From an uncultured Pedosphaera sp. (lineage in GTDB: Bacteria; Verrucomicrobiota; Verrucomicrobiia; Limisphaerales; Pedosphaeraceae), in assembly GCA_903918755.1 (NCBI GenBank), contig CAIXFN010000040.1:62001-126000 (forward strand): a stretch of DNA of 64,000 nucleotides, given 5' to 3'. Position numbers and translations under genes: made by a program. Each line of letters starts with the position of its first letter. Position 1 is the stretch's first letter. Below are positions 59,719-64,000 of the stretch, piece after piece. The notes beneath the pieces are model-generated. The model worked only from the letters and a program-made list of their open reading frames with translations, had not been told where the DNA came from and did no database searches.

Positions 59719-60300
59719 ATGCCGGAATTGAACTCATTGGAAGTAAACCTCGCGAATTATTCGCCGGGAAATTTTGATCGGGGCGCGAGCCGTTGGCGGG
59801 AAGCCGCCTGGGTGCTGACCGGCCTCCTGCTCTTCCGTCTTTGCCCGTTGAAGCTTTCGGGATTGAAGGCCTTGGTTTTGCGTTGCTTCGGCGCCCGGGT
59901 GGGCCGCGGAGTGGTGATCAAGCCCGGTGCCCGGATCACCTTTCCGTGGAAATTGACCCTCGGTAACCACGTCTGGCTGGGGGAGGATTGTTGGCTCCTC
60001 AACCTGGATCAGGTGGTCATTGAGGACCATGTCTGCATTTCGCAACGCGCTTTTCTTTGCACGGGGAGCCATGATTACCGACAGCCCACGTTTGATTTGC
60101 TGATTCAACCGATCCGGGTGGAAAAAGGCGCCTGGATCGGCGCCGGGGCGTTTGTGGGTCCGGGAGTGACCGTGGGCTCCCATGCGGTGGTCACGGCCGG
60201 TTCGGTGGCGACGAAGGATCTGGCCGCCTTCGGAGTCTTCCGGGGAAACCCGGCCGTGTGGATTCGCCAGCGGGTGCTCACGCCACAACCCAGGGGCTGA
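59719..60300 (+). CDS. WcaF-like hexapeptide acetyltransferase
   Basis: This 193-aa protein matches colanic-acid-type acetyltransferases. It opens LANYSPGNFDRGASRWREAAW, has a short hydrophobic segment (LTGLLLFRLCPL), then left-handed beta-helix repeats: RVGRGVVIKPGARITFP, VWLGEDCWLLNL, VVIEDHVCISQRAFLCTGSHDY (catalytic His) and WIGAGAFVGPGVTVGSHAVVTAGSV. It acetylates a sugar of the repeat unit using acetyl-CoA. Its ATG follows the preceding stop directly. Confidence 0.92.
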   Translation: MPELNSLEVNLANYSPGNFDRGASRWREAAWVLTGLLLFRLCPLKLSGLKALVLRCFGARVGRGVVIKPGARITFPWKLTLGNHVWLGEDCWLLNLDQVVIEDHVCISQRAFLCTGSHDYRQPTFDLLIQPIRVEKGAWIGAGAFVGPGVTVGSHAVVTAGSVATKDLAAFGVFRGNPAVWIRQRVLTPQPRG

Positions 60301-60303
60301 TTG

Positions 60304-61905
60304 ATGCTTTCCCAATCCCTTGCAATCCCGGGCCCCCGGGGGTGGCTTCCCATCTGGCTGGGAGCTTTCCTGGTGGGCTGCTTTTGGCTGGTGGTCCTGC
60401 GCCAACTTGGCGCCCAATGGTCCATCTACGAAAGTTATCACTTCGGCTGGGGCATGCCCTTTCTGTGCGGCTTTCTGGTTTGGCGACGCTGCCGGGGCAA
60501 GGTCATGTCTTCCGTGCCCGCGCGCGGGGCCCCCAGCGCGGGGCTTAATCCCACGGCTGCCGGTTGGATTGTGGTCGGCATCGCCCTCCTCTACGCACCC
60601 ACCAGGTTTCTTCATGAGGCCAACCCGATCTGGCGGTTGACCAGTCTCTTGCTGACGCTGGAAGTCATCGCGCTGACCCTCGTCATCATCACCCTGGCCA
60701 AAGGTCCGACGGGTTTCCGGAATTGGCTATTTCCCTTGCTGTTCTTCCTGGTGGCGGTTCCCTGGCCCTCGAGCCTCGAGAATTTCCTGGTCCGCTCCTT
60801 CACCAGCGCCGATGCCTCGGCTACGGTCGGTTTGCTGGGAATGCTCGGGATTCCCTCCCTGCAGCATGGGAATGCGATCGAGGTCGGCACCGGGTGGGTG
60901 GGGATCGACGAAGCTTGTAGTGGCATTCGCTCTTTTCAGGCCACCGCCATGATCGCGCTGTTTTTAGGCGAGTTTTACCGTCTGGGATGGTCCGCCCGCT
61001 GCTGGTGTCTCCTGGCGGGTGTGGGCTGGGCCTTCGGCTTGAACCTGCTCCGCACCACCCTGCTCGTCTGGTTGGAGGCGACCCGGGGCACCCGGGTAAT
61101 GGAGCAATGGCATGATCCGGCCGGAGTGACAATTTTGCTGGCTGGCTTTTTGGGGCTCTGGAGCACTGCCCGGCTGCTCGCCGGCCCCCCGCCAGCGGTA
61201 AAGGATGAAAATCTTCCCCGCTCCCGCAGCGATCCTCTACCCCGGCAACTTCCGCTTGCCCTCACGGGCGGGTTGCTCGCCTGGCTGATTCTGGTGGAGG
61301 CCGGAACAGAAGGTTGGTACCGCGTCCACGAAACGCCGCCTCCCGGCGCGGTTCCGTGGGATTTGCGCGCCAATAGTTCCCTGCCCGGATTTGCCCGGGT
61401 CGGAATTCCCCGCGAGGTGTTGGGCCAGTTTCGGGCTGATCGTGCGATGGAATTTCGCTGTCCCGATGCGTCCGGAAATCAATGGCAGGTTTACTACTTC
61501 CGCTGGTTTCCCAGCCGCACATTGGCTCACCGCCTGGCGGTCCAGATTGCCAAGACTCACGGGCCGGAGAAATGCCTGCCGGCCATGGGAATGAGTCTGG
61601 TTTCCCATCCCGGACTCTTCACCGTTTCGGCCGGCTCCCTCACCCTGGCCTTTCAGCATTATCTGTTTGCCGATCAAGGCCGGGTTGTGCATGTTTTTTA
61701 CGCCCTTTACGAAGATCCCTCCGGGACCGCGCAATTGGCCAATCGTCGCACCGATATGGCGGGGCGGATCGACGCGGCGTGGGCGGGCAGCCGCAATTAT
61801 GGCCAACGTCTCCTTGAGATCGCCGTCTCCGGTCCGGAGCGGCCGGCCGATGCGCGCGCCGCGCTCGCGCGTGAGTTGCCGGCCTGGATCGGCGCCGTCG
61901 AATGA
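60304..61905 (+). CDS. Exosortase fused to EpsI-type C-terminal domain
   Basis: This 533-aa protein has an N-terminal exosortase domain of about eight membrane helices (1-300). Conserved active-site residues are Cys205 in GIDEACSGIRSF, Arg250 in LNLLRTTLLVW and His270 in EQWHDPAG. Exosortases are transpeptidases that cut and transfer proteins bearing a C-terminal PEP-CTERM-like signal. Residues ~320-533 form a periplasmic EpsI-type domain (GIPREVLGQFRADRAMEF, YYFRWFPSRTLAHRLAVQIA, CLPAMGM) preceded by another membrane segment. The start is ATG 60304, preceded directly by an in-frame TTG. No substrate with a recognisable sorting tail is complete in this window. Confidence 0.92.
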   Translation: MLSQSLAIPGPRGWLPIWLGAFLVGCFWLVVLRQLGAQWSIYESYHFGWGMPFLCGFLVWRRCRGKVMSSVPARGAPSAGLNPTAAGWIVVGIALLYAPTRFLHEANPIWRLTSLLLTLEVIALTLVIITLAKGPTGFRNWLFPLLFFLVAVPWPSSLENFLVRSFTSADASATVGLLGMLGIPSLQHGNAIEVGTGWVGIDEACSGIRSFQATAMIALFLGEFYRLGWSARCWCLLAGVGWAFGLNLLRTTLLVWLEATRGTRVMEQWHDPAGVTILLAGFLGLWSTARLLAGPPPAVKDENLPRSRSDPLPRQLPLALTGGLLAWLILVEAGTEGWYRVHETPPPGAVPWDLRANSSLPGFARVGIPREVLGQFRADRAMEFRCPDASGNQWQVYYFRWFPSRTLAHRLAVQIAKTHGPEKCLPAMGMSLVSHPGLFTVSAGSLTLAFQHYLFADQGRVVHVFYALYEDPSGTAQLANRRTDMAGRIDAAWAGSRNYGQRLLEIAVSGPERPADARAALARELPAWIGAVE

Positions 61906-61948
61906 TCGACCTCGTTCTTGTTCAATTTTGTCCCGCCCCTTTTCTGCT

Positions 61949-63166
61949 TTGAAATTTTTGCTGCTCAACCAGGCGTTTTATCCCGACGTCGTTTCCACCG
62001 CCCAACACCTCCAAACCGTCGCCTTGGAGTTGGTCCGGCGCGGGCATGAAGTTACCGTAATCTCCAGCCGGCGGGCTTACGACCATCCCGGGCGAAAATT
62101 TCCCGCGTTTGAATGCTGGCGGGGCATTCACATCTACCGGGTTAATTCGACCGGATTTGGCAAGGCGGCCAAATGGCGCCGGGCGGTGGATTTTGGCTCG
62201 TTCATCCTGGGCTGTGCGGTTCGAATGCTCTTGCTGCCACGCCATGACGCGATCCTGGCCCTCACCAGTCCGCCCTTGATCTCCTTCCTCGGCGCCTGCT
62301 TGTCCGTGCTTCAACGCCGTCGCTTTTTTTACTGGGTGATGGATTTCAATCCGGATGAAGCCATCGCGGCCGGTTGGTTGCGGCCCGGTTCCCCGGTCAC
62401 GCGCGTTTTGGAATGGATGTCGCTGTTCAGTTTCCGGCGGGCAACCAAGATCATTGCCCTGGACCGCTTCATGCACGAGCGGATTGTGGCCAAGGGGATC
62501 GCCGCGGAAAAGATCGTGACCATCCCCCCCTGGTCGCATGATGATGAGATCAGCTTCGACCCGGACGGGCGGGCGCGCTTTCGCCAGGCGCACGGGCTGG
62601 ACGGCAAGTTTGTCGTGATGTATTCCGGCAATCACAGTCCCTGTCACCCCCTGGAGACATTGTTGCAGGCCGCCGAGGGTTTGCTGGATCAGCCGGAAAT
62701 CGTATTTTACTTTGTCGGCGGCGGAAGCGAGTTCCACAAGATCAAGCAAAAAGCGTTCGCTTCGGGAGGCGGAACACAGCCCGGCGCCAATCTGCGCTGC
62801 CTGCCCTATCAACCTTTATCGGAACTGTCCGGTTCCCTCTCCGCTGCCGATTTGCACGTGGTGGTGATGGGCGACCCGTTCGTCGGCCTGGTGCATCCCT
62901 GCAAAATTTATAACATCCTGGCCGTAGGCTCCCCTGTGCTTTGCATCGGTCCGCGGCCCAGTCATTTGTCGGAATTGCTTGATTCCTTGGGTGATCATTC
63001 GCACGCCATTGTTTCCCATGGCGACGTCGCCCAGGTCAGGACTGCCATTGTCCAGCTGCGGGAGCAAACGCGAAACCATCGAACGCGCCCTCCAGCGCCG
63101 GCCGGCTTGTCCCATCGGCAGGAAAGTGCCCTGCCGAAATTTGTGGGCATTCTGGAAGCCTGTTAA
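61949..63166 (+). CDS. Glycosyltransferase, GT4 type
   Basis: This 405-aa GT-B enzyme starts at TTG 61949 with MKFLLLNQAFYPDVVSTAQHLQTVALEL, as in WbuB-like transferases. Other motifs are GHEVTVISSRRAYDH, FFYWVMDFNPDEAI, VVMYSGNHSPCHPLETLLQAAEGL and VMGDPFVGLVHPCKIYNILAVGSPVLCIGP. The last has H-PCKIYNIL in place of EG...E, typical of this subgroup. The longer upstream frame overlaps the exosortase gene in another frame and is rejected. It lies one base before the TPR gene. Confidence 0.87.
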   Translation: MKFLLLNQAFYPDVVSTAQHLQTVALELVRRGHEVTVISSRRAYDHPGRKFPAFECWRGIHIYRVNSTGFGKAAKWRRAVDFGSFILGCAVRMLLLPRHDAILALTSPPLISFLGACLSVLQRRRFFYWVMDFNPDEAIAAGWLRPGSPVTRVLEWMSLFSFRRATKIIALDRFMHERIVAKGIAAEKIVTIPPWSHDDEISFDPDGRARFRQAHGLDGKFVVMYSGNHSPCHPLETLLQAAEGLLDQPEIVFYFVGGGSEFHKIKQKAFASGGGTQPGANLRCLPYQPLSELSGSLSAADLHVVVMGDPFVGLVHPCKIYNILAVGSPVLCIGPRPSHLSELLDSLGDHSHAIVSHGDVAQVRTAIVQLREQTRNHRTRPPAPAGLSHRQESALPKFVGILEAC

Positions 63167-63167
63167 C

Positions 63168-64000
63168 ATGAAAAAAACTGCCCTGCTGCTGTTGCTGGTG
63201 GTCGCCGGGATGCTGGGTCTTTGGCATTTCGGCCGCCCGGCCTACCGGAATTATCGCGAACAGCAATCCGCCCAGCGCGCCCGCGCGTTCCTTTCCTCCG
63301 GGGCCTATACCAATGCCTCCTTATCCGCGCGTCAGGCGTTGCTCCTGAATTCGAACAATCTGGCCGCGTGCCGGGTGATGGCGGAGTTGGCTGCCTTGTC
63401 CCACGCTCCCGCCGAACTGGATTGGCGGCGGCGCGTCGCGGAACTGGCTCCGACCATCGAAAACCGGCTTCTTTTTGTTGCGACCTGCCTCCGCGTGGAG
63501 GCGCCACCCTATTCCCTGGCGGTCCAACGCCTGGCGGAGCTGGCGGCCACGGCGCAAAATTCCGCGGCCTATCACGAACTGGCCGCCCAATTGGCCTTGA
63601 AACTGGGCCGCCGGGATGAGGCGGCGTTGGAATTCGCGGCGGCGACGCGGCTGCAACCCACCAACCAGTTCAATCAACTGAATCTCGCCGTCTTGCGCCT
63701 GGCTTCGCCGGACAAAAATGTGGCCGCGACCGCATTGACGACGTTGCAAAACCTGTCCTCCGATCCCGCCCTGGGGGTCGTGGCGCTGCGCTGGCAGGTG
63801 GCCGAGTGCCTGCGACGGGGAGACCTGGCCGGCGCGGCGCTCAACTCGGATCGGCTCCTGACTAATCCGGGCGCGGACCAATTCGATCAGTTGGAACAGT
63901 TGCATATCCGGCTGCAAAGTCACCGCCCGGATTTTCGCAGCTATCTCGCCGTCCTCCAGCAGCGTTGTGCCACGAATGCGAACATGACCTATAACCTGGC
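63168..64000 (+). CDS. TPR-repeat protein with N-terminal membrane anchor, truncated by window edge
   Basis: The frame opens at ATG 63168 and runs 277 codons to the right edge without a stop. The N-terminus KKTALLLLLVVAGMLGLWHFG is a membrane anchor or uncleaved signal. Helical repeats follow with TPR-like spacing: ARAFLSSGAYTNASLSARQALLLNSNN, AYHELAAQLALKLGRRDEAALEFAAATRLQP in parts, and ALRWQVAECLRRGDLAGAALNSDRLL. Exosortase loci often carry a TPR protein (PrsT-like), so a scaffold role in glycan or protein export is plausible. The C-terminus is outside the window. Confidence 0.75.
   Translation, partial: MKKTALLLLLVVAGMLGLWHFGRPAYRNYREQQSAQRARAFLSSGAYTNASLSARQALLLNSNNLAACRVMAELAALSHAPAELDWRRRVAELAPTIENRLLFVATCLRVEAPPYSLAVQRLAELAATAQNSAAYHELAAQLALKLGRRDEAALEFAAATRLQPTNQFNQLNLAVLRLASPDKNVAATALTTLQNLSSDPALGVVALRWQVAECLRRGDLAGAALNSDRLLTNPGADQFDQLEQLHIRLQSHRPDFRSYLAVLQQRCATNANMTYNL

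Follow-up and report, generated by a model that had tools for sequence, protein, structure and literature searches.

Gene Organization Around the Fused Exosortase

The DNA analysed here, called the window, is a stretch of 64,000 nucleotides (C40:62001–126000) of a 7.19 Mb assembly. Close to its right edge, an open reading frame encodes an exosortase (EpsH) joined to an EpsI-type domain. The gene, its parts and its neighbors, including one that lies outside the window and is numbered in the same frame, are as follows.

59719–60300, plus strand: hexapeptide acyltransferase, directly upstream of the fused gene (PF00132, E 4.9e-10)
60304–61905, plus strand: exosortase-EpsI fusion protein, 533 aa from ATG
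60367–61176, plus strand: exosortase (EpsH) membrane domain, residues 22–291 (PF09721, E 6.3e-37)
60916–60918, plus strand: codon of Cys205, the predicted nucleophile (EACSG), invariant in 46 homologues
61051–61053, plus strand: codon of Arg250 (NLLRTT), invariant in 46 homologues
61111–61113, plus strand: codon of His270 (QWHDPAG), invariant in 46 homologues
61255–61329, plus strand: extra transmembrane helix, residues 318–342 (secondary structure of the model and positive-inside loop 294–317)
61333–61902, plus strand: EpsI-type domain, predicted to be periplasmic, residues 344–533 (invariant W401, H419, P421, C424, and G429)
61943–63166, plus strand: GT4-type glycosyltransferase, directly downstream, start inexact (PF13579, E 9.8e-13; also PF13439)
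63168–64000, continuing to 64844, plus strand: PrsT-like TPR protein, truncated by the end of the window (TIGR02917, E 1e-15)
67050–67766 (C40:129050–129766; L025:7050–7766), minus strand, outside the window: P-domain protein with a PEP-type tail

One additional in-frame TTG is found at 60301, just before the ATG from which residues are numbered. The fusion reported in the preliminary description is borne out by the PF09721 match, by matches of EpsI models to homologues, and by a shared HxPxxC motif. Its placement between an acetyltransferase and a glycosyltransferase likewise agrees with the Pfam matches on the two sides. The TPR gene, which sits between the fused exosortase and the gene of the P-domain protein, scores 56.7 bits against TIGR02917 (PrsT) and does not reach the cut-off of 312.2, so that it is called PrsT-like only. 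Glycosyltransferases like the downstream GT4 are found near 13 of about 40 fused exosortases, and TPR genes of a similar kind in 18 of about 40 homologous loci. At the loci of three of the closest homologues (L099, L100, and L090), the gene directly after the fused exosortase encodes a polytopic protein that by eye is O-antigen ligase-like.

Cys205, Arg250, and His270 are intact as previously described, and in an alignment of 46 full-length fused homologues from Verrucomicrobiota none of the three is lost. The invariant residues of this alignment are A204, C205, G207, S210, N247, R250, L254, H270, and D271 in the membrane half, and W338, W401, H419, P421, C424, and G429 in the C-terminal half. 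An AlphaFold2 model of the fusion protein has a mean pLDDT of 90.6 and a pTM of 0.90. Because a basic loop (residues 294–317) and then the helix 318–342 precede the EpsI domain, the positive-inside rule would place this domain in the periplasm together with Cys205, Arg250, and His270.

Relation to Known Exosortases

Exosortases are common among biofilm-forming bacteria. The fusion protein passes the family cut-offs of PF09721 (127.8 bits, cut-off 25.7) and TIGR04178 (50.9 bits, cut-off 23), and scores under that of TIGR02602 (80.1 bits, cut-off 105.55). Classification thus confirms the exosortase family and yields no subfamily, as the protein stays far below the cut-off of every named NCBIfam exosortase subfamily. 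The top-scoring ones by sequence are XrtA, XrtD (VPLPA-CTERM), and XrtW, for which 73.1, 70.2, and 58.9 of the required 208, 400, and 425 bits are reached, respectively. These models align to the exosortase half only, although those of XrtD and XrtW, with 486 and 494 positions, are about as long as the fusion protein. Since none of the cut-offs is reached, the gene would represent an unnamed subfamily of Verrucomicrobiota, an accessory exosortase carrying its EpsI partner at the C-terminus.

The locus is similar in many respects to the PEP-CTERM/EpsH system (TIGR02602/TIGR02914) of Haft et al. (2006): the EpsH-type membrane domain with conserved Cys, Arg, and His, the C-terminal EpsI homology, the exopolysaccharide gene setting, and a nearby PrsT-like TPR gene are common to both. 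In contrast to that system, no dedicated model covers the fusion, and EpsI models miss the window member. It was already reported that 90% of EpsH homologues are located near exopolysaccharide genes, and that EpsI regions, whose function was then not known, are fused or adjacent to EpsH (Haft et al., 2006; PMC1569441). The link to a glycan cluster is therefore present here without being specific to this locus, which belongs to an already known system. The sequence evidence supports the earlier interpretation of the gene as an intact fusion of exosortase and EpsI that lies in a glycan cluster and presumably acts on proteins with a sorting tail, and the fusion is a true member of this system and probably active. 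While the glycan setting and the EpsI fusion are thus familiar, the predicted fold of the EpsI domain and its invariant HxPxxC are less expected.

Sequence and Predicted Fold of the EpsI Domain

EpsI models give no match to the window fusion protein itself. Among the 46 full-length homologues, 16 are matched by PF11984/DUF3485 (best E 5.5e-7), 12 by NF045608, and 6 by TIGR02914. The HxPxxC...G motif of the C-terminal part, HGPEKCLPAMG, is common to the two stand-alone, PF11984-positive EpsI proteins of the genome (HDPLYCFRGAG and HKPQFCLVGHG). Profile-to-single-sequence comparison of the domain with these two proteins gives weak, motif-centred alignments (probability 4.0 and 2.7).

No relative came up when solved structures were searched by sequence. 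Structure matches fall nearly all on the EpsI half, which says nothing against a known fold for the membrane half. With the EpsI domain alone, Foldseek retrieves DcrB (E 1.2e-4) and EagT6 (7.4e-4), then MTC28, SciW, PsbP, and LpqN, and VIA-align ranks DcrB (Z 8.0) and SciW (Z 7.8; rmsd 3.5 over 114 residues) above Mog1 and PsbP (near 6.5). A Z near 8 may reflect a common arrangement; nevertheless, the list of matches is coherent. The domain is thus predicted to adopt a DcrB/PsbP/Mog1-like fold, which is common to chaperones binding transmembrane helices. Identity to the DcrB, Eag, PsbP, and Mog1 proteins is about 5–15% with TM-scores of 0.3–0.4, the invariance of HxPxxC is a property of the fusion alignment, and likeness in fold does not amount to likeness in function.

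The structures of SciW and EagT6 are complexes with client transmembrane or N-terminal segments, which suggests, without proving it, a tail-holding role for the modelled EpsI domain. A bolder version, to which we give a rather low probability, is that EpsI, as a domain of the DcrB/Eag kind, takes hold of the hydrophobic PEP-CTERM tail and passes it on to the active site of the exosortase, and that HxPxxC may join in the transfer. If true, the fusion would show EpsI and exosortase acting as a single machine. In the literature searched, no paper connected exosortases with DcrB.

A Candidate Substrate Beyond the Right Edge

In the preliminary description, no substrate was visible in the window. 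Indeed, when every ORF of 100 aa or more was scanned, no sorting tail was detected there. As a puzzle, however, the absence probably does not persist: the P-domain protein with the PEP-type tail is encoded 5.1 kb from the fused exosortase and 3.05 kb beyond the right edge, so the apparent lack of a substrate comes from the placement of the window, and looking past the edge probably resolves it. This tail had escaped an earlier scan that tightly restricted how many residues may follow the motif, while a scan with a relaxed limit over C40:46001–180285 detects it as the only one in that stretch of the contig.

The P-domain protein has a GTG start, a signal peptide, and a P-domain (PF01483, E 4.7e-10), and ends with VPEPVNAALLIFGGMVAGGWGWGKLRK. 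Its tail consists of VPEP, a hydrophobic stretch, and K/R residues, reading VPEPVNAALLIFGGMVAGGWGWGKLRKSWGAASK plus an extension. The signal peptide, PEP motif, hydrophobic helix, and basic residues by which PEP-CTERM proteins are recognized are therefore all present. A search of the genome with a profile built from aligned tails of relatives, encoded no more than 3 kb from a fused exosortase, matched the tail at C40:129161–129238 (minus strand, E 7.2e-5, rank 4 in the genome), and the remaining five matches below 1e-4 are PEP-CTERM tails that PF07589 detects, too. In genome G053, which also has a fused exosortase, a homologue with 62% identity keeps the tail. Furthermore, the stop codon of the gene overlaps the ATG of a WecA/MraY-like gene (ATGA; CCATGA), the product of which matches PF00953 (E 1.5e-36).

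Against its being a substrate, the tail scores 12.0 bits with TIGR02595 and does not reach the cut-off of 16, it runs on for an unusual 30 residues or so beyond the helix, and one tail gene within 5.2 kb has a chance of about 4% in this genome. The protein is nevertheless, on sequence grounds, the most likely local candidate.

Two other secreted proteins were considered as substrates. The one cut by the left edge, proposed earlier, was read to its end (...AFTINRISSIPTLTRPR) and has no tail. A giant secreted protein, encoded by a frame of 5716 codons on the minus strand (C40:129960–147110; 67960–85110 in the window frame), adjoins the tail gene; it ends with YYRFKWQP, also without a tail.

Tail Genes Near Fused Exosortases in Relatives

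The surroundings of fused exosortases were compared at 47 loci, picked on the exosortase alone without consideration of tails. Tail proteins are encoded within 3 kb at 15 of them; at most loci a tail gene is absent from this distance, a point against the function proposed below. By distance, 12 tail genes are found at up to 1.5 kb, 6 at 1.5–3 kb, 2 at 3–6 kb, and 4 at 6–10 kb, corresponding to densities of 89, 48, 9, and 21 per Mb. Tail genes are therefore clustered, with 18 within 3 kb (0.26 Mb) versus 6 at 3–10 kb (0.42 Mb; binomial p 3e-4), and p is 0.003–0.007 once related loci are merged and two evident false matches are removed by eye. The curated PEP-CTERM model gives 4 matches within 3 kb, where about 0.5–0.7 are expected from its genome-wide density of 1.9 per Mb.

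This linkage also bears on the idea that the fused protein acts on the glycan itself, as a flippase or polymerase, and not on protein. Such a role was the first proposal for EpsH, cited by Haft et al. (2006; PMC1569441), and the position among glycosyltransferases would agree with it. The invariant Cys/Arg/His set and the linked tail proteins of relatives speak for a protein substrate instead, and Methylobacillus made methanolan as before when its epsH was disrupted (PMC1569441), so that we regard a direct action on glycan as very improbable.

At five loci from Opitutaceae and related organisms (L092, L094, L095, L096, and L098), a homologous tail protein of about 240–260 aa is encoded after or near the fused exosortase. 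These proteins are a possible dedicated substrate family.

Accessory or General Exosortase

Sorting tails, on which the preliminary description depended, are abundant in the genome. Profile searches, which give minimum counts, found at least 11 PEP-CTERM tails over the cut-off and at least 9 VPDSG-CTERM tails. The genome has six exosortases in total; among those other than the fused one, two are XrtC-like and two lie near an EpsI gene.

As the PEP-CTERM tails, at least 11, are scattered over other contigs, the fused exosortase could be of general purpose and serve every PEP-CTERM protein that the genome encodes, with the P-domain protein as just one client or, in view of the chance expectation given above, an accidental neighbor. 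We consider this the less probable explanation, albeit one of some weight. No fused homologue was found in five genomes of the same genus or family (G001 and G004–G007; in G001, of the same genus, at E 1e-10), and yet these hold 7–16 PEP-CTERM tails plus one or more other exosortases. Other exosortases can therefore serve such tails, and the fused enzyme looks accessory, not needed for PEP-CTERM proteins in general. That tail genes of relatives cluster around fused exosortases, at distances of up to 3 kb, is a second point against a general role.

The negative search for a homologue in G001, like the absence of a tail gene from the 64 kb window, would also fit an orphan or decaying exosortase without a client. 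This is quite unlikely in view of the open frame, the intact catalytic and EpsI residues, the tail gene 5.1 kb away, and the tail families present across the genome.

Proposed Function

Taken together, we judge it likely that the fused gene encodes an accessory exosortase, that the linked P-domain protein is its most likely local substrate, and that the outcome is an adhesive secreted protein holding glycan. By analogy with the family, the signal peptide would export the PEP-CTERM protein, and its C-terminal helix would hold it in the inner membrane. Cys205, aided by Arg250 and His270, would then attack close to the PEP motif, and the protein, now bound as a thioester, would be handed to an acceptor en route to the outer surface or exopolysaccharide. 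Tethered beside the active site, the EpsI domain would most likely hold the tail or take over the intermediate. The secreted adhesive protein could finally keep the glycan of the cluster on the cell.

The fusion offers one polypeptide with a high-confidence model, and a linked candidate substrate gene overlapping that of an initiating glycan enzyme; it adds a structural hint on the role of EpsI, and the question of how protein and glycan are connected becomes testable at a single locus. The main points of interest are thus the fold of EpsI and the overlapping pair of candidate substrate and WecA-like genes. In other systems, floc formation involves a PEP-CTERM protein and prsT (PMC9850573), and exosortase loss in the cyanobacterium Nostoc leaves PEP-CTERM proteins reduced or absent in the exoproteome (PMC12188702).

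Other Exosortases and Tails of the Genome

Contig C17 harbors five tandem paralogous PEP-CTERM proteins of 190–208 aa (L033:7691–10903), and no exosortase was found on this contig. An XrtC-like exosortase at C14:111866 (L028) has a VPDGG-tailed protein about 4.5 kb off (C14:117026), which fits VPDSG-CTERM sorting. The exosortase on C10 (L006:525–2406) adjoins an Npun_F0296-type surface protein with an APEPANVV tail, APEPANVVAIFTGI, and the two probably form a dedicated pair.
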